This document shows positions 7,156-33,809 of a stretch of DNA of 58,388 bases, piece by piece. The position numbers and the translations under genes are program-made. The DNA comes from an uncultured Aquabacterium sp. (GTDB lineage Bacteria > Pseudomonadota > Gammaproteobacteria > Burkholderiales > Burkholderiaceae_C): assembly GCF_947366995.1 (NCBI RefSeq), contig NZ_CANBCC010000018.1, positions 1-58,388 on the forward strand, read 5' to 3'. Under the pieces are notes generated by a model. It did not search any database, was not told the DNA's origin, and worked only from the letters and a program-made list of their open reading frames with translations. The stretch's first letter is position 1. Each line of letters begins with the position of its first letter.

Positions 7156-7196
7156 CTTGCCGCGAAATCGAGATATACTCTAAGTCTTCGCTCAAC

Positions 7197-7273
7197 GGTG
7201 GCTGTAGCTCAGTTGGTAGAGTCCCAGATTGTGATTCTGGTTGTCGTGGGTTCGAGTCCCATCAGCCACCCCA
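7197..7273 (+). tRNA. tRNA-His (anticodon GUG)
   Basis: Acceptor GTGGCTG/CAGCCAC has the extra 5' G (-1) opposite C73, a hallmark of tRNA-His. The anticodon loop TTGTGAT reads GTG, the T-arm contains GGTTCGAGTCC, and CCA is encoded. A TATACT -10-like hexamer lies at 7174-7179 upstream. Confidence 0.97.
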
Positions 7274-7293
7274 CCGAATTCTGAAGACGCGTC

Positions 7294-17842: not shown

Positions 17843-18898
17843 TCACTTCTTGGCAGGCAGCACGTTGAGGTCGGCCGCGGCAGGCAGGTAGGCAGAAGTC
17901 CAGACGGCCTCGGGGTTCACGCGGGTCTTGGTGTTGAAGGCGTCGCCCACCTGCGAGGCCATCAGCGCCAGGCGCGGCAGCCTGACCTGGCCGAAACCTT
18001 CGGCGCGCGCGTCCGGACTGTTGACCACCTGCTCGATGGCCAGCTTCAGACGGCGCTTCTCCAGCTCGACGTTGATGATGCCGTCGCGGGCCTTCACGGC
18101 ATCGATGGCAGCATCCGGGTTGGCCATCACCTCCCTGGCACCCTTGGCAAAGGCCCTCAGGAAGGCCTTCACGGCTTCTGGGTTCTCCTTGAGGATCCGT
18201 GCCGACGCGATGATGGCGTTGCCGTACAGCTTCACCCCGTGCTGTGAATACGGAAACATCACGATCTCGTCTGCCTTGGCGCCCCGGGCCTCCAGGTTCA
18301 GCAGTGATGTGAACGAGAAGCCGGTGATCGCATCGACGTCACCACGCACCAGCATCGTCTCGCGCAGTGGCGGATCCATGGTGATCCACGTCACCGCCCC
18401 CAGCTTGTTGGCCTTGGCAAAGATGGGCCACGACTTGCGACCCGAATCGAATACCGGCGCGCCCAACTTCTTGCCCGCCAGATCGGCCGGTGTCTTGATG
18501 CCGGACTTCTTCAGCGCAAAGGCGGCGGCCGGCGTGTTGTTGTAGACCATCATGACCGCGACCGGCTTGTTCGGCACGTCCGGGTTGTTGGCGTGGAACT
18601 CCATCAGGGCCGCCATGTCGGCTAAGCCCATGTCATACGAGCCCGAGGCCACCCGGGTCACGGTGCCGCCCGAGCCGTTGCCAGCGTCGATGGCCACGTC
18701 GAGCCCCGCCTGCTTGAAGTGGCCTTTCGCCGCTGGCTGAAGGAACAGGGCGGCGGGGCCTTCAAAGCGCCAGTCGAGCTGGAACTTGATGGCGGTCTGG
18801 GCGTGCACCGCCGTGGTGCCCAGGGCGCCCCAGGTGAGGGCGGTGGCAGCGGCCAAGGTGGACAGCAGGGTGCGGCGAGGGCGCGAAATCGCGGTCAT
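17843..18898 (-). CDS. ABC transporter substrate-binding protein (NMT1/THI5-like)
   Basis: 351 residues. The export signal has paired arginines (RPRRTLLSTLAAATALTWGA, cleavage near VHA-QT) and could use Sec or Tat. The mature part starts IKFQLDWRFEGPAALFLQPAAKGHF, the typical opening of NMT1/THI5-like and SsuA-like proteins; relatives bind formylaminopyrimidine, riboflavin, sulfonates or nitrate. The ligand cannot be read from the sequence. It is the first gene of the transporter-deaminase unit. A 14-bp perfect palindrome lies 24 bp upstream of the start, nearly identical to the site in front of the purine-cluster GntR gene. Confidence 0.9.
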   Translation of the reverse strand: MTAISRPRRTLLSTLAAATALTWGALGTTAVHAQTAIKFQLDWRFEGPAALFLQPAAKGHFKQAGLDVAIDAGNGSGGTVTRVASGSYDMGLADMAALMEFHANNPDVPNKPVAVMMVYNNTPAAAFALKKSGIKTPADLAGKKLGAPVFDSGRKSWPIFAKANKLGAVTWITMDPPLRETMLVRGDVDAITGFSFTSLLNLEARGAKADEIVMFPYSQHGVKLYGNAIIASARILKENPEAVKAFLRAFAKGAREVMANPDAAIDAVKARDGIINVELEKRRLKLAIEQVVNSPDARAEGFGQVRLPRLALMASQVGDAFNTKTRVNPEAVWTSAYLPAAADLNVLPAKK

Positions 18899-18920
18899 GG
18901 GCAGGGGCTCCAGGGTGGCA

Positions 18921-18936
18921 AAACTGTATACAGTTC
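18921..18936. promoter_or_regulatory. GntR-type operator candidate upstream of the NMT1-type transporter
   Basis: AACTGTATACAGTT (18922-18935) is a perfect 14-bp palindrome just upstream of the binding-protein start. It matches 14 of 16 positions with the site at 32063-32078 in front of the GntR/FCD regulator gene. FCD-type GntR proteins commonly bind short palindromes with a GTATAC core. Confidence 0.65.
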
Positions 18937-19078
18937 ATGTTTGCGAGAAGCGTGCCAGCGGTGTCGGTCCGATTGGCGGTGGTGGCACCCTGGAAATGGG
19001 GGCGGACGGGGACGTGGACATCCCGCGCCGGCAGAGCCAACCGATAAAATCGGCCGGTTTCATCGACTGGAATCCGTG

Positions 19079-19918
19079 GTGTCTGATCGTCTTTTTGTCT
19101 TGTCCCAGTACATCCTGCCCAAGGTGGCGTTGACTCGCCTGGCTGGCTGGGGGGCTTCGGCCCAGGGAGGGGCGCTCACCACGGCCTTCATTCGCTGGTT
19201 TGCCGGCCGCTACGGGGTCAACATGGCCGAGGCCGCACAGCCTGAGCTGAGCAGCTACGCCAGCTTCAACGAATTCTTCACTCGCCCGCTGAAGCCCGGC
19301 GCGCGCCCGATTGCCGCCACCCGGCTGGTTTGCCCGGTGGACGGCGCCGTGAGTCAGTGCGGCCCCATCGACCGAGACCAGATCTTCCAGGCCAAGGGCC
19401 ACAGCTACTCCACCACGGCGCTGGTGGGCGGCGACCGTGCGCTGGCCGCGCAGTTCGAGGGCGGGCACTTCGCCACCCTGTACCTCAGCCCCAAGGACTA
19501 CCACCGCATCCACATGCCGTGTGATGGCCGCCTGACCCGCATGATCTACGTGCCGGGCGAGCTGTTCTCAGTGAACCCGGCCACCGCGCGCGGCGTGCCG
19601 GGGCTGTTTGCCCGCAACGAACGCGTGGTGTGCGTGTTTGAAGGCGAGCACGGCCCGTTCGTGCTGACCCTGGTGGGCGCCACCGTGGTGGGCAGCATGG
19701 CCACCGTGTGGCATGGCGTGGTGAACCCGCCGCGTTCCGGCAAGGTGCGTGAATGGCACTACGCCGACCAGCAGATCGTGCTGCGCAAGGGCGAGGAGAT
19801 GGGCCGCTTCCTGCTGGGCTCGACCGTGGTGATGCTGTTCCCCAAGGGCGAGCTGGCTTTCAACCCGCACTGGGTGCCGGGGCAGCCGATCCGCATGGGC
19901 GAGCCCATGGTGGCCTGA
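19079..19918 (+). CDS. psd: phosphatidylserine decarboxylase proenzyme
   Basis: 279 residues starting VSDRLFVLSQYILPKVALTRLAGWGAS, which aligns with the E. coli Psd start; the GTG at 19079 is chosen for that reason. The self-cleavage motif LGST (GRFLLGSTVVMLFPKG) near the C-terminus generates the pyruvoyl prosthetic group. It converts phosphatidylserine to phosphatidylethanolamine at the inner membrane. Other conserved segments are SYASFNEFFTRPLKPGARP, CPVDGAVSQ and YLSPKDYHRIHMP. Length is close to that of other type I bacterial enzymes. It is divergent from the ABC-transporter unit. Confidence 0.96.
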   Translation: MSDRLFVLSQYILPKVALTRLAGWGASAQGGALTTAFIRWFAGRYGVNMAEAAQPELSSYASFNEFFTRPLKPGARPIAATRLVCPVDGAVSQCGPIDRDQIFQAKGHSYSTTALVGGDRALAAQFEGGHFATLYLSPKDYHRIHMPCDGRLTRMIYVPGELFSVNPATARGVPGLFARNERVVCVFEGEHGPFVLTLVGATVVGSMATVWHGVVNPPRSGKVREWHYADQQIVLRKGEEMGRFLLGSTVVMLFPKGELAFNPHWVPGQPIRMGEPMVA

Positions 19919-20018
19919 TCAAGGTTTTCGCGGCGCAGGCCGCTTCCCTCCGGGCATGGGCCCGGTGACCTGGGTGCTTCAGCTGCAGGGGCACCTCGTT
20001 TGTACAGAGGTATTTGCA

Positions 20019-20927
20019 GTGCGACGTTCTTCTGGTGTGATGGTGCTGGGCTTTGCCGCCCTGCTGTCGGGCTCGCTGGCCCTGGGAGGCTGGCAGGCCG
20101 CCGAAAGCCTGATCCTGACCCGAACGGTCAATGAGGGCCGCACGGTGGCCGACATGGCCGAGAACGTCGGGCGATGGGCGTCGCAGTACGGTGGCGTGCA
20201 TGCTCGCACGCAGGGCGCGAACGCGAGCCTGCCCGGCACGTTTTTGACCCGATCGGTCTATGCCGTGTCGCAGGGCGATTCGGACGTGCTGCAGGGCAGC
20301 AAGACCGAGGATCGGCTCAGCGAGCGGCAGGCGATGGAGCGCGTCGAGGCCTATCACTGGAAGAACCCCGCCCTGGTGCAGCGCGAAGTGGCCGACGTGC
20401 TGGCTGCAAGCGGCAGCCGCTCGCAGTACCGGCTCACGGCCGGCTCGGTATTGAACCGCAACAACGCGCCGAACGCCTTCGAGCGCGAGGCCATCCAGGC
20501 GGTGCAGGCGGCTTTCGCCAAGCTGCCACCTGCCCAGGCAGCGGCGCTGGCCACACCCCAGCGTGTGCCGGGCGGCCGCCAGCCGGCGCCGCTGGAATAC
20601 TGGCGCGTGGAGGCTGGGCGGCTGTTGTATGCCCGTGCCGTGATGGCCCAGGCCAGTTGCCTGAAATGCCACGACGCCCCCGGCAGTGCGCCCGAGTTCA
20701 TCCGCACCAACCAGCAGTTCAATGGCGGTGGTGGTTTTGGCTACAAGGCCGGGCAGCCGGTGGGCGTGATCAGCGTGACGGTGCCGCTGCCCGCCGTTCA
20801 GACCGTCGTCACAGAGAGTCTGTCGCCCGTGTCGATGGCGGCCCTGGCTGTGGCGGCGTTGTCGGCGCTAGGGTTGCTGGGCGTGGGGCTGGGCGGCCTG
20901 TTCCGGGGACCGGATCGAGCCGCTTGA
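20019..20927 (+). CDS. Tll0287-like (DUF3365) c-heme domain protein
   Basis: 302 residues from the GTG at 20019; an ATG at 19956 would add 21 non-signal-like residues. An N-terminal membrane anchor (VMVLGFAALLSGSLALGGW) is followed by a periplasmic domain with a single heme c motif, CLKCH, and GGFGYKAGQPVGVISVTVPL, features of the Tll0287-like/DUF3365 fold. A second helix (about 270-292) lies near the C-terminus. Relatives are PAS-like heme sensors or electron carriers, often without known function. No kinase, HAMP or output domain is attached. It lies 100 bp after psd and is convergent with rluA. Confidence 0.8.
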   Translation: MRRSSGVMVLGFAALLSGSLALGGWQAAESLILTRTVNEGRTVADMAENVGRWASQYGGVHARTQGANASLPGTFLTRSVYAVSQGDSDVLQGSKTEDRLSERQAMERVEAYHWKNPALVQREVADVLAASGSRSQYRLTAGSVLNRNNAPNAFEREAIQAVQAAFAKLPPAQAAALATPQRVPGGRQPAPLEYWRVEAGRLLYARAVMAQASCLKCHDAPGSAPEFIRTNQQFNGGGGFGYKAGQPVGVISVTVPLPAVQTVVTESLSPVSMAALAVAALSALGLLGVGLGGLFRGPDRAA

Positions 20928-20934
20928 GCCCTGT

Positions 20935-21864
20935 TCAGGCGCCCTTCGTGGGCCAGTCGAGCCGCAGCGTGCTCTCGAAGTGGCGCGCCTGGCCAGTGAC
21001 CGGGTCGGTGAAGCTCAGTGTGCGAGCCAGCAGCTGCAGCGGGTGGCGGTAGTCCGGGGTCTCGCCGTCGGCCAGGTCCGGTTGAAGCTCGGGGTAGATG
21101 CGGTCGCCCTGGATGGGCAGGCCCAGCGCATTCATGTGGGCGCGGAGCTGGTGCTTCTGCCCAGTGGTGGGCAGCAGGCGATAGCGCGCGCGACCGGCGT
21201 GCGTCTCGAGGCACTCGATGCGGGTTTCGGCGTTGGGTTCGCCGGGCACCTCCTGCATCGCCATGAAGCGCTCGCTTTCGACCAGCCGGCTGTGCCGCGT
21301 CAATGGGAACGTCATATCGGGCCGGTGGGCGGCAATCGCTTCGTACACCTTGTGCACCAGGCGGTCGCGGAACAGCGACTGGTAGGCGTGGCGTGTGGCG
21401 GGCTGCACTGTGAACATCACCAGACCGGCGGTTTCGCGGTCCAGGCGGTGCATGGGCACCAGCGTGTCGATGCCCAGCCGGCGCTTGAGCCGCACCAGCA
21501 GCGTCTGCTGCACGTAGCGGCCCTTCGGCGTCACCGGCAGAAAGTGCGGCTTGTCGGCCACCACGAGGTGGGCATCCTGAAAGACGACGCGTTCTTCGAA
21601 TGGAATCGGATGCTCGAAGGCGAGCTGGCGCCAGTAATACAGGCGCGTCTGGGCGCGGTAGGGCGCATTGGGCGAGACGGGCTCTCCGTGCGCGTCCACC
21701 ACATCGCCCTGAGCCATGCGGGTGTGCCAGTCGGCGCGTGACACGGCCGGGATGCGCTCGCACAGAAAGTCGAGCACGGTGAGCCAGGCTCCGGCGGGCA
21801 GGGCCACGCAGCTGGCGCTCACGCCATCCCGGGTGGGGAGGGCGGGGCGAGTCGGACGACTCAT
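20935..21864 (-). CDS. RluA-family pseudouridine synthase
   Basis: 309 residues with the RluA-type catalytic motif HRLDRETAGLVMF, in which the Asp is the nucleophile, and the flanking GRYVQQTLLVRLKRRLG and GQKHQLRAHMNALG blocks. It isomerises uridine to pseudouridine in rRNA or tRNA. Which RNA site is modified cannot be told; it is not a clear RluC or RluD since no S4 domain is seen. The ATG at 21864 overlaps the trhO stop by 4 bp, so two RNA-modification genes are coupled. Confidence 0.9.
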   Translation of the reverse strand: MSRPTRPALPTRDGVSASCVALPAGAWLTVLDFLCERIPAVSRADWHTRMAQGDVVDAHGEPVSPNAPYRAQTRLYYWRQLAFEHPIPFEERVVFQDAHLVVADKPHFLPVTPKGRYVQQTLLVRLKRRLGIDTLVPMHRLDRETAGLVMFTVQPATRHAYQSLFRDRLVHKVYEAIAAHRPDMTFPLTRHSRLVESERFMAMQEVPGEPNAETRIECLETHAGRARYRLLPTTGQKHQLRAHMNALGLPIQGDRIYPELQPDLADGETPDYRHPLQLLARTLSFTDPVTGQARHFESTLRLDWPTKGA

Positions 21865-22739
21865 GCCGGATCGTCCTTGGCGGGCACAGGGCCTGGTCGC
21901 TTGGGCTCGGCCGATTCCAGCCGGCGGGCCCGCTCCAGTCGCCACGCCTCGTCCGGGCTGTCGTCGTAGACCTGGTCGACCGTGGTGTCGGTCTCCTGCA
22001 AGCGGGTGTCGACCGCCACGCGGTTGTCGAACACGAAGCACTCGCCCTGCCAGTCGCGGTCGGCATCGGGCAGTTGCTGGAAGTAGTTGAGGACGCCACC
22101 GTCGAGCTGGTAGACGTCCAGGCCGAACTGCTGCATCCAGGCACTGGTTTTCTCACAGCGGATGCCGCCGGTGCAGTACATCGCCACCTTGCGGCCTTCG
22201 GCCTGCCACTGTGCGGCGTGCGCGGCCACATAGGCCGGGAAGTCGCGGAAGTTGCCGACGCAGGGGTCGACCGCGCCCTGGAAATGGCCGAGGCGGTATT
22301 CGAAGCTGTTGCGGTTGTCCAGCACCACGACATCGTCGCGCGCGATCAGCTCGCGCCACGCTTCGGGCGTCAGGGGCTGACCGGAGGCGCGATCGGGCAC
22401 CGCGCCGGTCACTCCGGGCAGATTGAGCGCCACGATTTCCTTCTTGCGCTGCACACGCACCTTCCAGAACGGCCGGGTGCGGCAGGCGCTGTGCTTGAAC
22501 GGCATGCCGAGAAACGCCGACGCCAGACGGGTGTCGTGCTGCACGGCCTGCTCGAAGGCGGCCACCGCATCGACCGGGCCTGCCAATGCGCCGCTGATGC
22601 CTTCTTCGGCCACCAGCACGCTGCCTGTCAACGGCTGAACGAGTTCGCGCAACACGGCCACCACCGCGTCCGGATCGGCAAGCGGCACGAATCGGTAGAA
22701 CGAGGTGTGGACCAGGGCGTTGTCGGCTGGAGCAGGCAT
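21861..22739 (-). CDS. trhO: tRNA uridine(34) hydroxylase TrhO (rhodanese-like, YceA)
   Basis: 292 residues. The N-terminal domain (FYRFVPLADPDAVVAVLREL) precedes a rhodanese domain with the catalytic loop CTGGIRCEKTSA and the preceding NRNSFEYRLGHFQGA. TrhO (formerly YceA) makes 5-hydroxyuridine at the wobble position of certain tRNAs in an O2-dependent reaction. The ATG at 22739 is preferred, because the upstream in-frame extension (to 22910) runs into the phoD promoter region and is not family-like. It is coupled to the pseudouridine synthase gene. Confidence 0.93.
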   Translation of the reverse strand: MPAPADNALVHTSFYRFVPLADPDAVVAVLRELVQPLTGSVLVAEEGISGALAGPVDAVAAFEQAVQHDTRLASAFLGMPFKHSACRTRPFWKVRVQRKKEIVALNLPGVTGAVPDRASGQPLTPEAWRELIARDDVVVLDNRNSFEYRLGHFQGAVDPCVGNFRDFPAYVAAHAAQWQAEGRKVAMYCTGGIRCEKTSAWMQQFGLDVYQLDGGVLNYFQQLPDADRDWQGECFVFDNRVAVDTRLQETDTTVDQVYDDSPDEAWRLERARRLESAEPKRPGPVPAKDDPA

Positions 22740-22875
22740 CACGCGATTGTCGCAAGGTTTGTCCGTTTCACCGGAGTACGTTCGGACTACGGCGTGGCGG
22801 CCCACACGGTGGGGCTTGTCATCGATTCTGCGCAGCATGGCGGCTTCGTTGTTGTTGCAGTGGATCGAGACAGAG

Positions 22876-24555
22876 ATGGACCAGAAGTTTGCCGACCGCC
22901 GGGCGTTCATCGGTGGCCTGGGGGCCGCCGCGCTGGCGATGCCGGTGTTGCTTGGCGCCTCGCGCGCAGAAGCGGCTGCGCCTCCCTTCGTTCATGGTGT
23001 GGCCAGCGGTGACCCCCTGGCTCAGCGCGTGATCCTGTGGACTCGGGTGACCGCCTCGGGCGACGCCAATCCCCGCGTGCTGTGGGAGGTGGCGCTGGAC
23101 GCTGCCTTCACGCGCCCTGTGCGCAGCGGCCTGGTGCGCACCAGCGCCACGCGTGATTTCACGGTGAAGGTGGACGTGGATGGCCTGAGCCCCGACACCA
23201 TCTACCACTACCGGTTCACCTACAACGGCACACGCTCGCCCGTGGGACGCACGCGCACGCTGCCAGTGGTGGCACGCGAGGCGATCCGCCTGGCCGTGTT
23301 CTCATGTTCCAACTATCCCGCAGGCTACTTCCACGCCTATGCCCAGGCCGCACGCATGGCCGACCTGCATGCCGCGGTGCACCTGGGTGACTTCATCTAT
23401 GAATACGGCCGGGGCGGCTACGCTTCGGATGACGCAGCCGCCATGGGTCGCGAAGTGCTGCCTCCGCACGAGTGCGTGAGCCTGTCGGACTACCGCATTC
23501 GGCATGCCCAGTACCGTACCGATCCGGGCCTGCAGGCGCTGATGGCCAGCGTGCCGATGATTGCCGTGTGGGACGACCACGAGGTGTGCAACAACACCTT
23601 CGTGACGGGGGCCGCGAACCACACGGCCGGGGTCGAGGGCGACTACGTGACGCGCCGCGACGCTGCCTTGAAGGCGTACCATGAGTGGCTGCCGGTGCGC
23701 ACACCTGACACCGCTGACCTGCGCCGCATCTACCGCTCGTTCGACTTCGCCGATGTGCTGTCGCTGCACATGCTCGAGACGCGCTTGCTGGCGCGCACGG
23801 AGCAGCTGTCTGCCGCAGACTTCGTCGGCCCCGAGGGCATCAATGCGGCCGCCCTGTATGCCGCGGCGAACGCACCTGATCGGGCCTTGCTGGGCAGCAC
23901 GCAACTGGCGTGGCTGCAGGAGCAGATGGCTGGGTCGCGCGCCACCTGGCAGGTGCTTGGCCAGCAGGTGCTCATGGGGCACATGGACATTCCGGCCGCA
24001 ATCGGGCTCGGGCAGATCTCGGTGGGCGGCTACGAGGCACTGACACGCAAGGCCGCCCACAACCCGGGCGACCTCACGCGTGCGGAACGCTACATCCTCG
24101 ACCAACCGGTGGTGCCGTGGAGTCTGGATGCCTGGAGTGGCTACGGCGCCGAGCGCGAGGCCGTGTTCGCGGCTGCACGCCGCCTCGACCGCAATCTGGT
24201 CGTCCTGGCGGGGGACACCCACAACGCCTGGGCCAATGACCTGGTGGATCAGGGTGGCCAGCCGGTCGGCGTCGAATTCGCCACGCCGGGGGTCTCGTCG
24301 CCGGGCATGGAAGCGTCCCGCCGCACGGACGATCCGGATCAGCTTGCCCGCTGGATGGTGGGCAACGTGCCGCACCTGCGCTACGCCGAGACACGCCGCC
24401 GCGGCTTCATGGTCGTGTCGGCCACGCGTGAGGTCTGTCAGTCGACCTGGTACTTCGTCGACACGGTCAAGTCTGATCGCTACCGAATCGAACCGGGCCC
24501 CACGTGGCAGACGCTGCCGGGCGCCGATCAGCGCCGCCTGCTTCCCCCGGCCTGA
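22876..24555 (+). CDS. phoD: PhoD-type alkaline phosphatase/phosphodiesterase
   Basis: 559 residues. A twin-arginine signal (DRRAFIGGLGAAALAMPVLL, cleavage near AEA) sends the folded protein to the periplasm or outside. The N-terminal Ig-like PhoD domain (FVHGVASGDPLAQRVILWTR) is followed by the metallophosphoesterase domain with FSCSNYPAGYF, HLGDFIYEYG, WDDHEVCNN and LAGDTHNAW, the Fe/Ca ligands of PhoD. It hydrolyses phosphate mono- and diesters. The ATG at 22876 places the RR motif at the right distance. Two secreted-protein genes follow at 42 and 12 bp spacing, so all three may form one exported unit. I see no good Pho box. Confidence 0.93.
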   Translation: MDQKFADRRAFIGGLGAAALAMPVLLGASRAEAAAPPFVHGVASGDPLAQRVILWTRVTASGDANPRVLWEVALDAAFTRPVRSGLVRTSATRDFTVKVDVDGLSPDTIYHYRFTYNGTRSPVGRTRTLPVVAREAIRLAVFSCSNYPAGYFHAYAQAARMADLHAAVHLGDFIYEYGRGGYASDDAAAMGREVLPPHECVSLSDYRIRHAQYRTDPGLQALMASVPMIAVWDDHEVCNNTFVTGAANHTAGVEGDYVTRRDAALKAYHEWLPVRTPDTADLRRIYRSFDFADVLSLHMLETRLLARTEQLSAADFVGPEGINAAALYAAANAPDRALLGSTQLAWLQEQMAGSRATWQVLGQQVLMGHMDIPAAIGLGQISVGGYEALTRKAAHNPGDLTRAERYILDQPVVPWSLDAWSGYGAEREAVFAAARRLDRNLVVLAGDTHNAWANDLVDQGGQPVGVEFATPGVSSPGMEASRRTDDPDQLARWMVGNVPHLRYAETRRRGFMVVSATREVCQSTWYFVDTVKSDRYRIEPGPTWQTLPGADQRRLLPPA

Positions 24556-24597
24556 CCCCCTCCTGTTTTTCCTTCCTCTGCTTTACCGGATCACATC

Positions 24598-25434
24598 ATG
24601 AGCTTGAAACAGAATCTGGCCCTGCTGGCGCTGGCCGCCGTGCTGCCTTCGACCCACGCCGCCGTGAGCGTCACACTGACACCTGAGGCCGGCGGCCTCG
24701 CTGCGTTCGAGTACGAGCAGTCGTTCGACAGCCTCCCATCCGCGGGCACCGGTCTGGCCTGGGCCAACGACAGCACATTCGCAGGCTGGTCGCTGTTCGA
24801 CAGCACCAAGTCGGCCAAGACCACTTACCGCGCCAACAATGGCAGCGACACGGCGGGCAGCTTCTACAGCTACGGCAACTCGGCAGACCGCGCTCTGGGT
24901 GCGATCGGCTCGGGCGCCACCTACTGGGGATCGCCCGCGTCCGGGGCGCTGTCGGGCTACATCACGCTGGCCTTGCGCAACGACACCGGCCAGGCACTGA
25001 GCAGCGTGGGCGTCTACTGGGATGCCGAACAATGGCGCCTGGGTCAGGGCAACCCGGGCAGCGACGCGCTCGATTTCCGCTTTGGCCTGGGTGACACGTT
25101 CAAGGGCGTGAGCACGTGGGTCAATCCGGGCGTGTCCTTCAAGTACAACTCGCCGGTCGTCAACACGACGTCGGGTGCAGGCGCGGCGCTGGACGGCAAC
25201 GCCAACGTCGTTTCCCTTGGGGGCGACATTGCCCTGGACTGGCAGCCCGGCCAGACCCTGTGGCTGACCTGGATCGACTACAACAGCGCCGGCAACGACC
25301 ATGGCCTGGCCATCGACAATGTGTACGTGAGCACGGCCGTGGCCGCCGTGCCGGAGCCCGAGGCGGCTGCGCTGGCCTTGATCGGCCTGGGCCTGGTGGC
25401 TGGCGTGGCGCGCCGCCGCGCCCAGCGCGCCTGA
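24598..25434 (+). CDS. PEP-CTERM sorting-domain exported protein
   Basis: 278 residues: a Sec signal (ending THA-A near 21), a beta-rich domain of about 220 residues, and a C-terminal PEP-CTERM signal (VPEPEAAALALIGLGLVAGV then RRRAQR). The domain starts EQSFDSLPSAG, contains GSFYSYGNSADRALGAIGSG and ends NDHGLAIDNVYV. This pattern recurs in bacterial secreted proteins, sometimes attached to nuclease or phosphatase domains, and is probably a carbohydrate- or surface-binding beta-sandwich (inference). PEP-CTERM proteins are cut by an exosortase (not in this window) and placed on the surface or in the exopolymer. It is a tandem paralogue of the next gene. Confidence 0.88.
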   Translation: MSLKQNLALLALAAVLPSTHAAVSVTLTPEAGGLAAFEYEQSFDSLPSAGTGLAWANDSTFAGWSLFDSTKSAKTTYRANNGSDTAGSFYSYGNSADRALGAIGSGATYWGSPASGALSGYITLALRNDTGQALSSVGVYWDAEQWRLGQGNPGSDALDFRFGLGDTFKGVSTWVNPGVSFKYNSPVVNTTSGAGAALDGNANVVSLGGDIALDWQPGQTLWLTWIDYNSAGNDHGLAIDNVYVSTAVAAVPEPEAAALALIGLGLVAGVARRRAQRA

Positions 25435-25446
25435 GAGGGGAACGGC

Positions 25447-26214
25447 ATGAGCTTGGTTTGCCGTTGGCAGGCTGCGCTGCTGGCGCTGGCCTGCCTGGCT
25501 GCTGCACCGGCGGCGCGGGCCGAACTGCCCGTGAAGCTGGATGCCAGCGGGCGCTACGTATACCGTCAGGACTTCAACACCCTGGGCGCAGTCAGCCGTG
25601 CGTACGACTGGGTGGACAACCAGACGCTGCCGGGCTGGTCGCTGTTGAACTTCGTCGAGCAGCCGCTGGTCACCCCGACCTACCGAGGGGATGTGGGTGA
25701 CGACGGTTCGGGCAGCTTCTACAGCTATGGTCTGGAGGGAGACACCAACCGTGCGCTGGGTGCGCTGGGTTCGGGCAGTGCGTACTTCGGCACGCCGGCC
25801 CCGGGCGCGCTGGCAGGCTACATCACCGTGGCGTTTCGCAACCTGTCTGGGCAGGATCTGGATCGCATTGCCGTGCGCTTTCAGGGGCAGCAATGGCGTC
25901 AGGGCGCGAGCGACAACCTCAACACCCTCGCGTTCGAATACGGCGTGGGTGAGGTGTTCGGGCACGTGAACTGGGTGCGCCCGGGCAAGGGCTTCGACTT
26001 TGATTCACCCTCGCCGTTGATCGGCACGCCGGAAGGGCAGGTGGTCAACGGGCGGGATCCGCTTGCCAGCGCCCAGTTGGGGGGCGCCTTGCCGACCGTG
26101 TGGCCGGCGGGTGCCAAGCTGTGGCTGCGCTGGGTGGTCGTCAACAACCATGGCTTCGATCACGGCCTGGCGATCGACGACGTGGAGTTGAAAGCGGAGC
26201 GCGCGCCGCGCTGA
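25447..26214 (+). CDS. secreted beta-sandwich protein, paralogue without sorting signal
   Basis: 255 residues with a Sec signal (ARA-E cleavage near 25) and the same domain as the preceding gene: RQDFNTLG, LPGWSLLNF, GSFYSYGLEGDTNRALGALG, FRNLSGQDLDRIAVRFQGQQWR and NHGFDHGLAIDDVEL. It ends right after the domain, without a PEP motif, hydrophobic helix or basic tail, so it should be released or periplasmic. Only 12 bp separate it from its anchored paralogue, implying cotranscription. Function unknown. Confidence 0.85.
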   Translation: MSLVCRWQAALLALACLAAAPAARAELPVKLDASGRYVYRQDFNTLGAVSRAYDWVDNQTLPGWSLLNFVEQPLVTPTYRGDVGDDGSGSFYSYGLEGDTNRALGALGSGSAYFGTPAPGALAGYITVAFRNLSGQDLDRIAVRFQGQQWRQGASDNLNTLAFEYGVGEVFGHVNWVRPGKGFDFDSPSPLIGTPEGQVVNGRDPLASAQLGGALPTVWPAGAKLWLRWVVVNNHGFDHGLAIDDVELKAERAPR

Positions 26215-26235
26215 ATCGACGCAATGGCAGCGCGC

Positions 26236-27099
26236 CTAACGCCAGCACGGCGTGGCGCGCGCCAGCCGGCGCAGTGCCTGTACGGCCGCCTTGCGCGCCA
26301 GGCTCTGCCTGTGTGCGAGCCATGCCAGCCGGGCGGAGACGTCGGCGCCCAGCATGCGGGGCGCCCCCTGGCAGCGCTGGGTGGCCATGTGCAGGTCGTG
26401 CCATTCACCCAGCTGTCTTTGTGCGGCGCGCAGACGCCGCATGTACGCCTTGCGAGCGGCTTCTGGCAGGTGCGGGCGCAGCCAGAGCAGCGCCTGCTGC
26501 AGGCGCTTGCAGCGCTTGCGTTCGCTGTGCAGGGCATCGTCGTCCAGTGCGTGACCGGTGCGCGCGGCGTCTGCCATGCGGGCATGCCATCGGTCCATTC
26601 TGCGGACCAGATGATGCCGCCACGCATCGCGTTCCTCGTGGGTGCTCGGCACCTGGGCGGCCGTGTTCAGCCACTGAGCCAGTTCGTGCCACGCGCGCAT
26701 GAAAGGCGCGTCGGGTGCGAAGCAGGCTGGCAGATCGTCGCGTCGGAGTGCCACCGCGGGGCTGTCCTGCGCAGCCAGCCAGGGCGCGAGCTGGTGCCAG
26801 GCCACGTCGCCCAGCAGCTCACGCAGTACGTCTTCATCGCGTGAGGCGCCCAGCAGACGGAAGGTCTGCGTCCACACCAGTGATTCGGGCGCCGTGTGCC
26901 GAGCGCCTCGCGCCAGGTCGAATGCACTGCGAAGGCGCCGCAGGCCGCTGCGGCACTGGTGTACCGCCTCGACGTCCACCTGTCCCTCTGCCATCCGCGC
27001 CACCGGGTCACGCAGGTCGTCCAGACACGCCTGAAGCCAGCGCAACAGCGTGGCGTCGGCGTCGGGCAGGGTGTGCAGTCGGTGGTGCGCGTTCGACAT
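26236..27099 (-). CDS. CHAD domain protein
   Basis: 287 residues made up almost entirely of a CHAD (conserved histidine alpha-helical) domain: VEAVHQCRSGLRRLRSAFDLARG near the start, DEDVLRELLG, HSERKRCKRLQQALLWLRPH and LGEWHDLHMATQRCQ. CHAD domains are basic helical bundles that bind inorganic polyphosphate and often accompany CYTH triphosphatase domains. Here there is no CYTH domain and no signal peptide. It is convergent with the secreted-protein pair and lies close to phoD, so a phosphate-related theme is possible but not proven. Confidence 0.87.
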   Translation of the reverse strand: MSNAHHRLHTLPDADATLLRWLQACLDDLRDPVARMAEGQVDVEAVHQCRSGLRRLRSAFDLARGARHTAPESLVWTQTFRLLGASRDEDVLRELLGDVAWHQLAPWLAAQDSPAVALRRDDLPACFAPDAPFMRAWHELAQWLNTAAQVPSTHEERDAWRHHLVRRMDRWHARMADAARTGHALDDDALHSERKRCKRLQQALLWLRPHLPEAARKAYMRRLRAAQRQLGEWHDLHMATQRCQGAPRMLGADVSARLAWLAHRQSLARKAAVQALRRLARATPCWR

Positions 27100-27176
27100 G
27101 GCGGGCAGGCGAGCTGGCGTCGCTCACAGCGTACGCCCCGCATGTGACACCTGCATGCTGTCGCCGTGACAGCCCT

Positions 27177-28430
27177 TCAGTGCAGCAGGTCGAACAGGGC
27201 CCGGGCGACGACCTTGGTGGCGCCCCGCAAGTCCTCGAGCACCAGATGTTCGTCGGCCCGCTTGGCGTTCGACTCGAACACGGTGCGGGGCCCGGCGCCA
27301 TAGATGACCGCGGGAATGCCGTGCGCGCAATACAGCCGCACGTCGGTATAGAGCGGGGTGCCGCTGGTGGGAATCGGCTCGCCAAACATGGCTTGACCAT
27401 GGCGCTGCAACGCGGCCACCAGCGGCGCATTGCCGGGCAGCGGCTTGAGTGCCTCGGCCAGCAGCAGGCGGCGAATCTCGACAGTGATGCCGGGGAAGCT
27501 GGCTGCCGCGTCGGCAATCACCTTCCGAAGGTCCGCCTCGACGGCCACCGGATCCTCTTCGGGAATCATGCGGCGATCCAGCTTGAGCACGACCTTGCCG
27601 GGCACGACGTTGGTGTTGGTGCCGCCTTCGATGCGACCGACGTTCAGATAAGGGTGCGTGATCCCGGGCACCTGCGAGGCGACCTGGCGGTAGCGCGCGT
27701 TCTGTGCGTACAGCGCGTTCAGGATGGTGACCGCGCCCTGGAGTGCATCGACCCCGGTGTGCGGAATGGCCGCGTGGGCCATGGTGCCGTGCACGGTCAC
27801 TTCCATCTGCAGGCAGCCGTTGTGGGCGGTGACCACCTCGTGGCTGAAGCCCGCGGCGATCAGCAGATCCGGCCGGGTGAGGCCTTGCCTGAGCAGCCAG
27901 CCAGGGCCCAGCTCGCCGCCGAACTCTTCGTCGTAGGTGAAGTGCAGTTCCACTCCGCCCTTCAGCGTCATGCCACCATCGCACAGTGCGTCGAGCGCGC
28001 GCAGCGCAAAGGTGTAGGTGGCGAAGTCGCTCTTGCTGACTGCGGCCGCGCGGCCATACAGCTTGCCATCGACGACCTCACCGCTGTAGGGCGGGTGCGT
28101 CCAGCCTTCGCCCGGCGGCACAACGTCGCCGTGGGCATTGAGCGCAATGACAGGGCCGCTCTCGTCAAAGCGACGACGCACGATCAGGTTGGTGAGGCTT
28201 TGCAGACCATAGGCGTGCACTTCAGATTCGGGCACCGGGTAGGCCTCGGCCTGGTAGCCGAATTCCGCAAGCAACTCCGCCGTACGTTGCGCATGGGGGG
28301 CGTTGTTGCCCGGCGGGGTGTCGGTCGGGACCTGCACCAGTGCCTGCAGAAAACGCACCTCCTCGTCGAAGTGGGCGTCGATCCAGGCGTCGAGGGCGGC
28401 GTGGTCTGGCGTGTCGATGGGGGGGCTCAT
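27177..28430 (-). CDS. M20-family hydrolase (ArgE/DapE-like), atypical metal site
   Basis: 417 residues with M20 peptidase/deacylase architecture. The first metal block NAHGDVVPPGEGW and the catalytic acid block HFTYDEEFGGELG are present, and the last ligand region DEHLVLEDL is near the C-terminus. The usual bridging-Asp motif (GRGxxDMK) reads GRAAAVSKSD, and the usual GEPT-like ligand block reads AGFSHE, so the metal site is unusual. It is the last gene of the gntR-puuE-uraD/allC operon, 30 bp after the fusion gene, which suggests a ureide or other purine-degradation amide as substrate (inference). Its closest relatives by name are acetylornithine deacetylases, which would not fit the context. 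Confidence 0.8.
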   Translation of the reverse strand: MSPPIDTPDHAALDAWIDAHFDEEVRFLQALVQVPTDTPPGNNAPHAQRTAELLAEFGYQAEAYPVPESEVHAYGLQSLTNLIVRRRFDESGPVIALNAHGDVVPPGEGWTHPPYSGEVVDGKLYGRAAAVSKSDFATYTFALRALDALCDGGMTLKGGVELHFTYDEEFGGELGPGWLLRQGLTRPDLLIAAGFSHEVVTAHNGCLQMEVTVHGTMAHAAIPHTGVDALQGAVTILNALYAQNARYRQVASQVPGITHPYLNVGRIEGGTNTNVVPGKVVLKLDRRMIPEEDPVAVEADLRKVIADAAASFPGITVEIRRLLLAEALKPLPGNAPLVAALQRHGQAMFGEPIPTSGTPLYTDVRLYCAHGIPAVIYGAGPRTVFESNAKRADEHLVLEDLRGATKVVARALFDLLH

Positions 28431-28460
28431 GGTGGGCAGAAGCGGATAGCCGGGCGCGCT

Positions 28461-30269
28461 TCAGAGCGCATCCAGCAGGTTCATGAATACCTTAACGGCG
28501 CGCTGTGCATCGTCGTTGGTGACCGTTTCCAGCGGGTTGTGGCTGATGCCGGCGTTGCCGCCACGCACGAAGAGCATGGCCTGAGGCAGGTGTCCGTGCA
28601 GCTTCATGGCGTCGTGGCCGGCGCCGCTGGGCAGGTGGAACAAGGGCAGACCCATGCTTTGCACGGCGGCTTCCCAGCGGGCTTGCCAGGTGGGGTCGGA
28701 GGGGGCGGCCGATGCGGCCATCGTTTGCTCGACCGTGATGCGGACCTGCCGGCGCCGGGCCACCTCGTCGATGAAGGCCAGCACGTCGCGGGCCAGGGCG
28801 TCGCGCTGGGCGTCGGTCGGGGCGCGCAAGTCAAGCGTGAACTGGCAGCGCCCCGGAACCACATTGAGCGAACCCTGCGGCACCTGCAGCACGCCGACCG
28901 TGCCCACCGATCCGCCGGTGGGCGAGGCGGCATCCTGTGCGGCGCGGCGCTCGACGTACAGCACGATCTCGGCCACCGCGGCCGCGGCGTCCTGGCGCAT
29001 CGTCATGGGCGTCGTGCCGGCATGGCATGCCATGCCGAGGGCCTCGCCCGCAAAGCGCAGGCTGCCATTGATGGAGGTGACGATGCCCAGCGGCATGTCG
29101 TGTTCGTCCAGCACGGGGCCCTGTTCGATGTGAACCTCGACAAAGCCGAGGTAGCGAGCCGGATCGCGCCGCAGCGCCTGGATGGCGGCCAGATCGGCAG
29201 GCAGCCCCGCCTGCCGCATCGCCTCGCGCACGGTGATGCCCTGTTCGTCGGCCAGATCCAGCCAGGCAGGCTCGAATTCGCCCACAAGCGCGCTGGACCC
29301 GAGGAAGGTCGCCCGGTAGCGCTGGCCTTCTTCTTCGGCAAAGGCCACGACCTCGATGCCGTGCTTCAGCCGCCGGCCAGCCCGGTGCAGCGCCTGCACG
29401 CACGCCATGGGCACGAAGATGCCGAGCCGCCCGTCGTGCTGACCGCCGTTGCGTACGGTGTCATAGTGTGAGCCGGTCATCAGCCACGGCGCGCTGGCCT
29501 CGCTGCCCCGGTAGCGTCCGACCACGTTGCCCACGGCATCGCGCTCGACCTGATCGAAGCCGCAGTCGCGCATCCACTGCTGCAGCTGTGCGGCACACGC
29601 CTGGTGGGCCGGGGTGAGGTAGGTCACGGTCAGAGGCGGTTCACCATCAAGGCCGTTCGTGCCCGTGCCTTCGGTGTGTCGCGCCAGTTCCTGTGCCCAT
29701 GTGAGGATGCGGTCGCCCTCGGTGGGCATGACGCCGAATCGGTCGTTCAGCCGGATCTCGGCGATGCGGTGGATGTTGCGCAGGCACTCCGCCAGCTCGA
29801 ACGCCGGGCTGTGATGCAGACGGCGTTCGAACGTGCGGATGATGTTGGCACGGCTCAACCCCAGGCCACGGGGGCCGCGCACTGCGAGGATGAACGGCCA
29901 GCCAAAACGCGCGTTGTAGTCGGCATTCAGGCGCTGCAGCGTGGCGAACTCGTCGGGGCTGCAGTGGGTCAGGCCGGCCCGGCTCTGCTCGTCTGTAGAC
30001 TCGGCCGTGAGCTGCCCGGCCACCGCCGCCTTTCCCGCCAGCTCGGGGTGGGCACGGATCAGCCCCAGCTGGGCGTCACGCGGGGCCTGGCGCACGACCT
30101 GAGCCAGCGCATGCTTGAGTTGATCCAGAGACACGAAGCCGCCGGCGGGGCGCTGCGACCAGGCCTGCTCGGCAATCCAGGGCGAGTGCTCGTAGATGCC
30201 ATCGAGCAGCGCCACGAAGGCTCGCTGGTCGGCCGCGTTCAATGAAGCGAGGGTGAGGGGGGCGCTCAT
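28461..30269 (-). CDS. bifunctional OHCU decarboxylase / allantoate amidohydrolase (UraD-AllC fusion)
   Basis: 602 residues. About 1-170 is 2-oxo-4-hydroxy-4-carboxy-5-ureidoimidazoline decarboxylase, with catalytic His in RAHPELAGK and the LTAESTDEQSRAGL block. About 185-602 is allantoate amidohydrolase of the M20/M28-like AllC group: GSHYDTVRNGGQHDGRLG, AEEEGQRY, FVEVHIEQGPVLD and GISHNPLE carry the metal and substrate residues. The first half makes S-allantoin; the second opens allantoate to ureidoglycine, CO2 and ammonia. Allantoinase, which acts between them, is the gene immediately upstream and overlaps by 4 bp. Both halves keep their key residues, so both are probably active. Confidence 0.93.
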   Translation of the reverse strand: MSAPLTLASLNAADQRAFVALLDGIYEHSPWIAEQAWSQRPAGGFVSLDQLKHALAQVVRQAPRDAQLGLIRAHPELAGKAAVAGQLTAESTDEQSRAGLTHCSPDEFATLQRLNADYNARFGWPFILAVRGPRGLGLSRANIIRTFERRLHHSPAFELAECLRNIHRIAEIRLNDRFGVMPTEGDRILTWAQELARHTEGTGTNGLDGEPPLTVTYLTPAHQACAAQLQQWMRDCGFDQVERDAVGNVVGRYRGSEASAPWLMTGSHYDTVRNGGQHDGRLGIFVPMACVQALHRAGRRLKHGIEVVAFAEEEGQRYRATFLGSSALVGEFEPAWLDLADEQGITVREAMRQAGLPADLAAIQALRRDPARYLGFVEVHIEQGPVLDEHDMPLGIVTSINGSLRFAGEALGMACHAGTTPMTMRQDAAAAVAEIVLYVERRAAQDAASPTGGSVGTVGVLQVPQGSLNVVPGRCQFTLDLRAPTDAQRDALARDVLAFIDEVARRRQVRITVEQTMAASAAPSDPTWQARWEAAVQSMGLPLFHLPSGAGHDAMKLHGHLPQAMLFVRGGNAGISHNPLETVTNDDAQRAVKVFMNLLDAL

Positions 30270-31213
30270 GCTGCAGCCTTGAAGGGATGCGTGGCGCGCC
30301 AGTGGCGGGCGATGTCGATGCGTCGGCACACCCACACCTTGTCGTGCGCCTGGACGTGGTCCAGGAACTTTTGAAGGGCGCGCATGCGGCCCGGGCGCCC
30401 CAGCAGCCGGCAATGCATGCCGATGCTCAACATCTTCGGGCGGTTCAGCCCGTTCGGGTCGCCTTCTGCGTACAGCACGTCGAAGGCATCGCGCAGGTAG
30501 GTGAAAAAATCATCGCCTTGCGCGAAGCCCTGGGGCAGGCTGAAGCGCATGTCGTTGGTGTCCATCGTGTAGGGCACGATCAACTGCTGCACCACCTCGC
30601 CATTGCTTTTCTGCACGGGCATCCAGAAAGGCAGGTCGTCTCCGTAGTGGTCGCTGTCGTACTCGAAGCCGCCGTGGTCGGCCACCAGGCGGTGCGTGTT
30701 CGGGCTGTCTCGGCCGGTGTACCAGCCCAGCGGACGCTGGCCCGTCAGCTCCTCGATGATCTGCATGCCGGTGCGCATGTGCTCGCGCTCGGTTGCCTCG
30801 TCGACCTGCTGGTAGCTGATCCACCGCCAGCCGTGGCAGGCGATCTCGTGGCCCAGCTCGACAAAGGCCTGCGTCAGCTCTGGGTGACGCTGCAGTGCCA
30901 TGCTCACACCGAACACCGTGAGCGGCAGCCCGCGTTGCTCGAACTCGCGCAGCAGCCGCCACACGCCGGCCCGCGAGCCATACTCGTAGATCGACTCCAT
31001 GCTCATGTGCCGGTCCGGAAAAGCCGGCGGGTTGAACATCTCGCTGAGGAACTGTTCGCTGCCCGCATCGCCATGCAGCACGCAGTTCTCGCCGCCTTCT
31101 TCGTAGTTCAGCACGAACTGCACGGCAATGCGGGCCCCGTCGGGCCACTGCGCGTGCGGCGGGTTGCGGCCGTGTCCGATGAGGTCGCGGGGGTAGGCGG
31201 CGGTCTGGCTCAT
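30266..31213 (-). CDS. puuE: allantoinase PuuE (polysaccharide-deacetylase fold)
   Basis: 315 residues, matching cofactor-independent allantoinase PuuE: YPRDLIGHGRNPPHAQWPDGARIAVQFVLNYEEGGE at the start, ACHGWRWISYQQVDEATER in the middle and SIGMHCRLLGRPGRM near the end. It hydrolyses S-allantoin to allantoate. The ATG at 31213 gives the usual start; an in-frame TTG at 31237 would extend it by eight residues. It is the second gene of the operon headed by the GntR regulator and overlaps uraD-allC by 4 bp. Confidence 0.94.
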   Translation of the reverse strand: MSQTAAYPRDLIGHGRNPPHAQWPDGARIAVQFVLNYEEGGENCVLHGDAGSEQFLSEMFNPPAFPDRHMSMESIYEYGSRAGVWRLLREFEQRGLPLTVFGVSMALQRHPELTQAFVELGHEIACHGWRWISYQQVDEATEREHMRTGMQIIEELTGQRPLGWYTGRDSPNTHRLVADHGGFEYDSDHYGDDLPFWMPVQKSNGEVVQQLIVPYTMDTNDMRFSLPQGFAQGDDFFTYLRDAFDVLYAEGDPNGLNRPKMLSIGMHCRLLGRPGRMRALQKFLDHVQAHDKVWVCRRIDIARHWRATHPFKAAA

Positions 31214-31239
31214 GAGGTGATCCGGTGTCGTCGGCAAGG

Positions 31240-32055
31240 TCAGGTGGAGGCGCCAAGCACCACGCCGGGTGCGCGCGGGTGCTGGGTCAGCTGGCGTTCG
31301 ACCGTCAGCAGGTGCGCATCGACCAGGGCCGCGGCGCGGTCGGCGTCCCGCGCCTCGATGGCCTGCAGGATGGCGATGTGCTCGGCGTGCGAGGTCTCGG
31401 CGTCATCGGCCGACTGGTACATCAGCGTGATCAGCGAGCAGCGCGACACGAGTTCCTGAATCAGGTCCACCAGCACCTGGTTTCCCAGAACCCGGGCGAG
31501 CTCGACGTGAAAATCGAACAGCAGCTTGGAGCGGGAGGGAACGTCGATGCGCTTGACGGCATCGCGTTCCGCCTTGAGGTGGGCCTTCAGTTCGCGCAGG
31601 TCACCCGGCTTGATGCGGGCGATCAGTTCCCGCAGCATCTGGCCTTCCACCATGCGCCGCACTGCAAAAACCTCGCGCGCTTCTTCGATCGACGGGGCGG
31701 CCACGAAGGCGCCCCGCGCTGGTTCCAGTCGCACGAGCTTGAGTTCCGACAGCCGGTTGAAGGCCTGCCTCACGATGGTGCGGGAGACCCCAAAACGGTC
31801 TGCGATCTTCTGCTCGACCAGCTTGGCGCCGGGCAGCAGGCGGTGCTCGACGATGGCCCGGGTGACGGCGTGCACGATGTGCTCGGTGCTGGTGGGGCTG
31901 TCGGAGCCCTCCGCATCGGCGACCGGCATGGGGATGGCTTCGGCATCGGCCTTCGTCAGCGGCGGGCGCCGGGCCGGTGCCACGTCGGCTTCAGCCGACA
32001 CACCGGTGGCGGCAACGGTGTCGGGGGAGGGGGGCGGCTTGCGTGCGGCGCTCAT
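31240..32055 (-). CDS. GntR-family transcriptional regulator (FCD/FadR subfamily)
   Basis: 271 residues. A long Pro/Ala-rich N-terminal extension (about 1-52) precedes the winged helix-turn-helix (LLPGAKLVEQKIADRFGVSRTIVRQAFNRLSELKLV) and a C-terminal all-helical FCD ligand-binding domain with the usual metal/ligand histidines (FDFHVELARVLGN, SHAEHIAIL). It is the first gene of the ureide operon (puuE, uraD-allC, M20) and is divergent from uraH-puuD. A palindrome with core TGTATACA lies 8 bp before its start, fitting autorepression and control of both divergent operons, probably relieved by a pathway intermediate (inference). Confidence 0.92.
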   Translation of the reverse strand: MSAARKPPPSPDTVAATGVSAEADVAPARRPPLTKADAEAIPMPVADAEGSDSPTSTEHIVHAVTRAIVEHRLLPGAKLVEQKIADRFGVSRTIVRQAFNRLSELKLVRLEPARGAFVAAPSIEEAREVFAVRRMVEGQMLRELIARIKPGDLRELKAHLKAERDAVKRIDVPSRSKLLFDFHVELARVLGNQVLVDLIQELVSRCSLITLMYQSADDAETSHAEHIAILQAIEARDADRAAALVDAHLLTVERQLTQHPRAPGVVLGAST

Positions 32056-32062
32056 CGTGGTT

Positions 32063-32078
32063 AAAGTGTATACAGTTT
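32063..32078. promoter_or_regulatory. GntR-type operator candidate in the gntR-uraH divergent region
   Basis: AAAGTGTATACAGTTT has a TGTATACA core and matching outer AAA/TTT arms with one internal mismatch pair. It lies 8 bp before the gntR start and about 95 bp before uraH. It is nearly identical to the palindrome at 18921-18936. Confidence 0.65.
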
Positions 32079-32171
32079 TTCGCGATGCTGGCAACCGGCG
32101 TTGACGCCGGGCACACCGCGGCCCGCGACTTGCATCCCTGAAACAGGCACATGTCGTGCCAGGACCATCTC

Positions 32172-32570
32172 ATGAGCGACACCCCTCCCCCCGCCACGGG
32201 CCGACTCACCACCCATGTGCTGGACACCGTGCACGGCACGCCGGCGGCCGGCATGTCGATCGCGCTGTATGTGCGCGAGCCCTCGCCCGACGGGTGCGCG
32301 GATGGCCGTTGGCTGCTGTTGCGCAGCGTGGTGACCAACGCCGATGGCCGCGTGGATGGCCCGCTTCTGCAGGGCGAGGACTTCAAGCCGGGGCACTACC
32401 GGCTGGTGTTCGATGTCGACGGCTATTTCCGCACACGCGGCACGCCGCTGCCCGCAACGCCCTTTCTGACCCAGGTGCCGCTGGACTTCGGCATTGGCGA
32501 TGCGGGCGCGCACTACCACGTGCCGTTGCTCGTGAGCCCCTGGTCCTACTCCACCTACCGGGGCAGCTGA
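32172..32570 (+). CDS. uraH: 5-hydroxyisourate hydrolase (transthyretin-like)
   Basis: 132 residues with the HIUase signatures LTTHVLDTVHGTPAAGM at the start and the C-terminal SYSTYRGS; the terminal tetrapeptide YRGS is diagnostic for HIUase as opposed to transthyretin. It hydrolyses 5-hydroxyisourate, the product of urate oxidation, to OHCU. The ATG at 32172 is chosen because the residues encoded between 32151 and 32172 are not family-like. It is the first gene of the uraH-puuD unit and is divergent from gntR. Confidence 0.96.
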   Translation: MSDTPPPATGRLTTHVLDTVHGTPAAGMSIALYVREPSPDGCADGRWLLLRSVVTNADGRVDGPLLQGEDFKPGHYRLVFDVDGYFRTRGTPLPATPFLTQVPLDFGIGDAGAHYHVPLLVSPWSYSTYRGS

Positions 32571-32573
32571 GTC

Positions 32574-33809
32574 ATGGACGCATCCCCTTTGCTGGCCTAC
32601 GCGCTCGACTGGGCCAACCTGTTGCTGCGCTGGGCCCACGTCATCACCGCCATCGCCTGGATCGGCTCGTCGTTCTACTTCGTGTGGCTGGACAACACCC
32701 TGACGCGCCCCGTCGACAAGGCCCTGCTCGACAAGGGCGTGGGCGGTGAGTTGTGGGCCGTGCACGGCGGGGGCTTCTACAACCCGCAGAAGTACCTCGG
32801 TGCGCCGCGACAGTTGCCCGCCCACTTGCACTGGTTCTACTGGGAGAGCTACTCCACGTGGCTCACGGGCTTTGCGCTGTTCACCGCGCTGTACCTGTTC
32901 AACGCCGGCACCTTCCTGATCGACAAGACGGTGCACGACTGGGCTCCGGTGGTCGCCGTCCACACCGCGCTCGGCTTTCTGGCCGGGTTCTGGCTGATCT
33001 ACGACATGATCTGTCGCACGCTGGGCCGGGGCCCGAATGGCGATGCCATCGTGGGGGCCGTGGTTGCGGTGGTGGTCGTGTTCGCCTCGTGGCTGGCGTG
33101 CCAGCTGTTTGCCGGCCGGGCTGCCTTTCTGCTCGTGGGCGCCATGATGGCCACTGCCATGAGCGCTAACGTGTTCTTCTGGATCATTCCAGGCCAGCGC
33201 AAGGTGGTGGCCGCGATGAAGGCTGGACAGCCGGTGGACCCGGTGCACGGCCTGCGCGGCAAGCAGCGCAGCGTGCACAACACCTACTTCACGCTGCCGG
33301 TGCTGTTTGCGATGCTGAGCAACCACTATGGCTGGGCCTACAGCCATGCGCAGAATTGGCTGGTGCTCGTGCTCATCATGCTGGCAGGCGCGCTGATCCG
33401 GCGCTTTTTCGTGGCGCGTCACAAGACCGAGGTGGCCGGGCAACGGGCGCCCTGGGGCTGGGCTGTGGCCGGTGTGGCGGTGCTGCTCGGAGTGGCCGTG
33501 TGGCTGGCGCCCGCTTCGGTGCCCTCATCGGCCTCGGCGCTGCCAACCGAGAGCCCGGCCAACCTGACGGCGCGGGCCCACACCGTGGTGGCGCAGCGAT
33601 GTGTGATGTGCCATAACGCGCAGATCGCCAACAAAGGCGTCCGGCTGGACACGGCCGCTGCCATCGACGCGCAGGCCCAGGCCATCCATCAGCAGGCGGT
33701 GGTGCTCAAGGCCATGCCGATGAACAACGCCACGCAGATCACCGAAGACGAGCGGGCGTTGCTGGGTCGGTGGTATCGGGCGGTGCAGTCGATGTCGGCG
33801 CCGCAATAA
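32574..33809 (+). CDS. puuD: urate hydroxylase PuuD (membrane, cytochrome c domain)
   Basis: 411 residues. About eight membrane helices (from LLRWAHVITAIAWIGSSFYFVWLDN to about 315) form the urate-oxidase N domain, with characteristic VHGGGFYNPQKY and HWFYWESYSTWLTG. A C-terminal periplasmic cytochrome c segment carries CVMCH and a distal Met (KAMPMNNATQ). PuuD oxidises urate to 5-hydroxyisourate and passes electrons to the respiratory chain instead of making H2O2 like uricase. It starts 3 bp after the uraH stop. Confidence 0.94.
   Translation: MDASPLLAYALDWANLLLRWAHVITAIAWIGSSFYFVWLDNTLTRPVDKALLDKGVGGELWAVHGGGFYNPQKYLGAPRQLPAHLHWFYWESYSTWLTGFALFTALYLFNAGTFLIDKTVHDWAPVVAVHTALGFLAGFWLIYDMICRTLGRGPNGDAIVGAVVAVVVVFASWLACQLFAGRAAFLLVGAMMATAMSANVFFWIIPGQRKVVAAMKAGQPVDPVHGLRGKQRSVHNTYFTLPVLFAMLSNHYGWAYSHAQNWLVLVLIMLAGALIRRFFVARHKTEVAGQRAPWGWAVAGVAVLLGVAVWLAPASVPSSASALPTESPANLTARAHTVVAQRCVMCHNAQIANKGVRLDTAAAIDAQAQAIHQQAVVLKAMPMNNATQITEDERALLGRWYRAVQSMSAPQ

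Follow-up and report, generated by a model that had tools for sequence, protein, structure and literature searches.

The window, by which we mean the whole 58,388-nucleotide stretch analysed from an uncultured Aquabacterium sp., carries a purine-catabolism cluster headed by gntR (31240..32055, minus strand), the gene for the proposed regulator. The GntR protein combines a GntR winged helix (PF00392) with an FCD ligand domain (PF07729), both above their cut-offs, placing it in the FadR subfamily of the GntR family. Following gntR on the same strand are genes for a PuuE-type allantoinase (30266..31237, TIGR03212 above cut-off), an OHCU decarboxylase fused to an allantoate amidohydrolase-like M20 domain (28461..30413; identified by Pfam and by TIGR03164 above its cut-off, with NF010373 staying below its own), and, last in the cluster, an M20-family peptidase/deacylase-like protein (27177..28430, Pfam). 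The start codons of the allantoinase and fusion genes are uncertain. Used as a query, the fusion aligns over a single block in many relatives (loci L101-L180), as if it were widespread among them. Divergent from gntR, on the plus strand, lie uraH, which encodes a 5-hydroxyisourate hydrolase of the transthyretin family (32172..32570, PF00576), and a gene for a PuuD-type urate oxidase (32574..33809, PF06181 Urate_ox_N).

A transporter-plus-deaminase unit is found further to the left, also on the minus strand. It comprises genes for an NMT1/THI5-type substrate-binding protein (17843..18898, PF09084), an ABC ATPase (16988..17815, PF00005), and an ABC permease (16218..16991, PF00528), which together make up an NMT1/THI5-type ABC importer, and a gene for a cytidine-deaminase-fold deaminase (15575..16123, PF00383). 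No NCBIfam model scored above its cut-off on the binding protein, several solved relatives of which are pyrimidine-precursor (THI5-type) proteins. The best solved relatives of the deaminase are named CMP/dCMP deaminase zinc-binding protein and the weaker ones TadA and guanine deaminase; a purine is its suspected substrate. The purine region contains a second, unrelated deaminase, a TIGR02967 guanine deaminase at 41722-43077, where there is no palindrome. Because opposite-strand genes, such as a PhoD-type gene at 22705-24555, stand between the gntR cluster and the transporter, the transporter lies outside the gntR transcription unit.

Palindromes in the window and the assembly

The initial annotation described two near-identical palindromes linking these gene groups, and both are found, at 32063-32078 and 18921-18936, ~13 kb apart and matching at 14 of 16 positions. 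Candidate operator 1 (AAAGTGTATACAGTTT, 32063-32078, no strand assigned) lies between the divergent gntR and uraH, ends 7 bp before the gntR ATG, and is kept beside gntR in relatives. Candidate operator 2 (AAACTGTATACAGTTC, 18921-18936, no strand assigned) lies upstream of the NMT1-type gene, 22 bp from its ATG, and contains the perfect 14-bp palindrome AACTGTATACAGTT at 18922-18935. The full AAA/TTT arms that had been claimed for both sites do not hold for the second, in which the right arm reads GTTC and the arms are thus incomplete.

In the window, the exact core TGTATACA occurs only at these two sites, versus 0.02 copies expected from dinucleotide shuffles. With up to three mismatches the 16-mer has three matches, versus 0.03 in shuffles, the third being a weak one with a broken core at 6278. 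A score matrix built from 45 gntR-proximal sites of relatives, with the window left out, scores the 32063 site at 32.6, the 18921 site at 26.6, and the next best position in the window at 8.2. Neither the exact TGTATACA nor the matrix scan of the window identified a site at its xdh, guanine deaminase, Bmp, or adenosine deaminase genes, and therefore the palindrome does not cover all purine genes.

The 4.0-Mb assembly has four copies of bare TGTATACA, compared with ~8 expected from the base composition of the window and ~1.4 expected on scaling up the window's shuffle rate. With no clear excess, the bare count was set aside as evidence, and the weight falls on the A/T arms and the location. Allowing up to two mismatches, the 16-mer has four matches in the whole assembly (both window sites, GAACTGTATACAGATT on contig C25, and one with a broken core) versus none for the reversed control; with up to three mismatches there are nine versus six, mostly noise. 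Chance, or a role of the 18921 palindrome as a mere promoter element, would fit the lack of a clear over-representation of bare TGTATACA in the assembly, and is opposed by the 16-mer counts, which exceed both shuffled and reversed controls. The copy of TGTATACA on C23, which is inside a 456-aa open reading frame and lacks A/T arms, was taken as chance, and the near-matches on C67 and C27 were rejected for core mismatches. The third armed copy in the assembly, GAACTGTATACAGATT (contig C25, locus L005, 7335-7350), precedes a Porin_4 gene (6233-7288), one of two adjacent Porin_4 genes there.

Conservation of the palindrome in relatives

Beside gntR, the palindrome is well conserved. Over a family set of 150 genomes drawn from a larger group and including that of the window, the motif (at most one mismatch) and a gntR orthologue (best E <= 1e-55, assigned by hand) occur together in 89 genomes, gntR alone in 16, the motif alone in six, and neither in 39 (Fisher p = 6e-17). 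One of the six motif-only genomes, G056, holds a partial gntR-like stretch. Among fetched loci, six of which were retrieved on account of a site listed there, the site is present in 43/44 uraH leaders and 22/31 puuD leaders. In the wider region before gntR, 39 of 47 leaders have a site with at most two mismatches, six have one with three, one with five, and one with six; the low figure of 11/47 obtained for gntR leaders arises because the start projected for the longer window protein served as the reference point. We also considered named genomes, chosen by protein alone as the best 80 of 556 gntR relatives, which by title are mostly Burkholderiales. Three of the 80 loci were dropped for short upstream sequence, and in 76 of the remaining 77, which overlap the family set and partly the training sites of the matrix, the palindrome adjoins gntR. 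The closest named loci, among the matches listed, include Aquabacterium, with gntR 69-75% identical. G033, the family set's only further member of this genus, is without gntR orthologue, transporter orthologue, and motif, and therefore tests nothing about the link.

Conservation before orthologues of the NMT1-type gene had been set beforehand as the test on which the proposed link could fail, and the site was found in 15 of 85 family genomes, the window excluded. As a comparison, the leaders of the next two genes contain it in 0/83 (ATPase, with one exact core lacking arms) and 0/78 (permease) cases, and 7 of 1760 shuffled windows reach the site threshold. Other leaders of the family loci have the site in 0/24 (deaminase), 0/44 (puuE), 1/45 (M20), and 5/22 (xdhC-like) cases. 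The transporter set, assembled from protein matches, comprises 88 genomes with an NMT1-type orthologue, the window's included, of which 86 have at least 250 bp upstream (G083 and G135 have less); G138, with an orthologue broken across two contigs, was excluded. In 26/88 genomes the transporter comes immediately after the purine cluster and on the same strand, behind M20 (23), gntR (2), or puuD (1). The site is above threshold at 3/26 of these cluster-following genes, at 2/2 divergent ones, and at 11/58 free-standing ones, where free-standing means that the fetched stretch shows no listed gene in the 600 bp upstream, and the class may therefore include longer operons with unlisted genes between. 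Of the free-standing orthologues, all counted with 250 bp or more upstream, the remaining 47/58 lack a site that reaches the threshold. Altogether, 39/86 NMT1-type orthologues are tied to the palindrome or the purine cluster and 47/86 are not. Universal conservation of the site before the NMT1-type gene was rejected, as most free-standing orthologues are without a good site. In G092 (locus L117), whose 2.3-Mb genome has no clear gntR orthologue, the palindrome is located between uraH and the NMT1-type gene.

Seven genomes reached through the named loci were searched for the binding protein, and three have a close orthologue. In G150 (Candidatus Aquabacterium excrementipullorum), GAACTGTATACAGTTT starts 37 bp before the ATG, versus 38 bp in the window, leaving a gap from site to ATG of 21 bp versus 22 bp. 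All 16 site bases are identical in this leader, and the remainder matches at 115/184 positions, near the 59% of shuffled alignments. In G152 and G153, where the transporter is 80.8% and 81.1% identical, the leader has no site; together with the 47/58 free-standing orthologues without a good site, this makes the link lineage-dependent. G150 also has an exact core, TAATTGTATACAGTCA (score 18), before its best porin match. The best porin matches in four other genomes searched have no core upstream, so that the porin link is present in 2/6 genomes, the window's included. The best reading of these sequences is that the porin would belong to the targets of the GntR/FCD repressor in two genomes. The absence of a site from most free-standing orthologues would fit a chance resemblance, and yet the site is enriched before NMT1-type orthologues and the identical 16-mer recurs at nearly the same spacing in G150. 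We consider chance, or a mere promoter element, very improbable.

Alternatively, only the gntR/uraH palindrome might be the operator of this GntR, with the 18921 palindrome belonging to another FCD-type GntR paralogue that reads the same half-sites. The genome has four matches to the GntR protein, itself included, and further GntR proteins of the FCD type might use the motif as well. GT-N2-AC motifs are common to several FadR-subfamily groups (PMC4494728). In G092, moreover, a site precedes the transporter in a genome without a clear gntR orthologue, although there it is shared with uraH. Set against this, the matrix derived from gntR-proximal sites alone still gives the 18921 site its score of 26.6, the motif and gntR co-occur over the 150 genomes, and the transporter directly follows the purine cluster in 26/88 genomes, and we judge a separate paralogue to be improbable. 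One regulator for both the ureide operons and the transporter-deaminase unit, as first proposed, gains support from the comparison, through the 15/85 leaders, the 26/88 adjacency, the co-occurrence with gntR, and G150. As judged from sequence comparison, the predicted regulon link is real, conserved, and lineage-dependent.

Elsewhere in relatives, further sites are found ahead of genes related to purines or ureides, for example puuD and those for a urea transporter and a xanthine/urate-family permease. In 13 genomes a site (in one case with a core mismatch) stands before an NCS2 permease gene, identified by eye from the translation; one of the 13 was confirmed by Pfam PF00860, and three more match that one at 84-85% identity. 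In one or two genomes each, the genes behind sites encode a urea transporter, a Bmp-type binding protein, pyruvate kinase, gamma-glutamyltranspeptidase, a CoA-ligase-family/class-V aminotransferase pair, and a DUF4147/MOFRL protein, which we take to be glycerate kinase-like. Several listed sites, including ones in L138, L218 (3916), L225, L226, and L228, have no recognisable gene behind them. A search with the NCS2 permease gave no match in the window's genome. Among five Aquabacterium-group genomes it gave no match in four and a weak one in the fifth, and among nine other family genomes a strong match in six, one being the query's own source, and none in three.

Promoters and a proposed mechanism

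A predicted sigma-70-type promoter of gntR, TTGCCA-18-TACACT (32065..32094, minus strand), was assigned purely by its match to the consensus and has its second hexamer inside operator 1. The promoter may alternatively be read as 16-TATACA. Its TTGC is kept at the same place in L236-L240. When 138 distinct gntR-proximal sites are compared, the most frequent best pair, seen at 59 of them, takes TATACA of the operator for its first hexamer and has its second one 17 bp downstream. One uniform promoter architecture was rejected, as the Aquabacterium-like group holds the second hexamer in the operator and 59/138 sites the first. A promoter scan of 18850-19100 found none. Both layouts would put the GntR protein on the promoter, as predicted for a repressor. 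Activation from these sites instead of repression appears unlikely, since predicted core-promoter elements lie partly within the site, which stops 7 bp short of the gntR ATG, where a repressor would sit, and since most FCD regulators characterised for catabolic operons act as repressors.

The two palindromes are very probably operators of an autoregulated GntR/FCD repressor of purine catabolism that also controls the NMT1-type importer and deaminase. In this proposed mechanism, the GntR/FCD protein (31240-32055) would bind AAAnTGTATACAnTTT, presumably in dimeric form. Between the divergent gntR and uraH it would cover a core-promoter hexamer and repress uraH-puuD as well as the cluster to which it belongs (gntR, allantoinase, OHCU decarboxylase/allantoate amidohydrolase, and M20), and at 18921 it would cover the leader of the NMT1-type ABC importer and deaminase. 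GntR would be released by an intermediate of the purine pathway, perhaps urate, allantoin, or a closely related compound, so that uptake and breakdown are switched on together, and the importer would carry purines or ureides.

Relation to known regulators and to uptake

In this group of regulators the known purine member is HpxS, which belongs to the GntR family and controls hypoxanthine utilisation in Klebsiella. The candidate regulator resembles HpxS in being a GntR/FCD-type protein with purine-catabolism targets and a GT-N2-AC operator, a likeness of geometry and targets, and purine-utilisation genes, the mark of the HpxS group, adjoin the sites. It differs from HpxS in its predicted targets, which in these Burkholderiales would be an NMT1-type importer and a porin besides urate-to-ureide genes. 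With HypR, PrpR, MdcY, UxuR, and GntR it shares palindrome geometry and protein family; the PrpR, MdcY, UxuR, and GntR groups serve other pathways. PecS and the HucR/UrtR-type MarR regulators respond to urate, and are alike in their control by purine metabolites and different in protein family and operator. The operator geometry here, TGT-AT-ACA, corresponds to GT-N2-AC, and the TGTATACA core of the 45 gntR-proximal sites has the GT and AC boxes of the FadR subfamily, which lie 2 or 3 nt apart. This spacing is assigned to the FadR-subfamily groups GntR, HpxS, HypR, MdcY, PrpR, and UxuR in PMC4494728. The pathway of HypR is hydroxyproline, other than the one here, according to PMC5343134, in which HpxS, xanthine, and ureid do not occur. 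A literature search covering titles and the starts of abstracts returned no description of this regulon in this lineage; the regulon may already be predicted in RegPrecise or in supplementary files.

A local catabolic regulator that controls its own pathway together with a transporter is the expected arrangement, and the surprise is therefore modest. The analysis outlines a candidate regulon for purine catabolism that is widespread and testable in these Burkholderiales, and the co-regulation predicts a substrate class for the NMT1-type ABC importer, deaminase, and porin, the functions of which are otherwise unassigned. More tentatively, and with the balance of probability somewhat against it, the NMT1/THI5-type importer and the deaminase might form a dedicated purine/ureide uptake system; in Aquabacterium-like bacteria lacking a close copy of the usual urate/xanthine permease, a dedicated outer-membrane porin would be linked to it by the same operator. 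If so, a single regulon would extend from the outer membrane to ammonia. A Cache-domain chemotaxis receptor, possibly a purine sensor, is encoded at 33815-35395 of the window, between puuD and the xdh genes.
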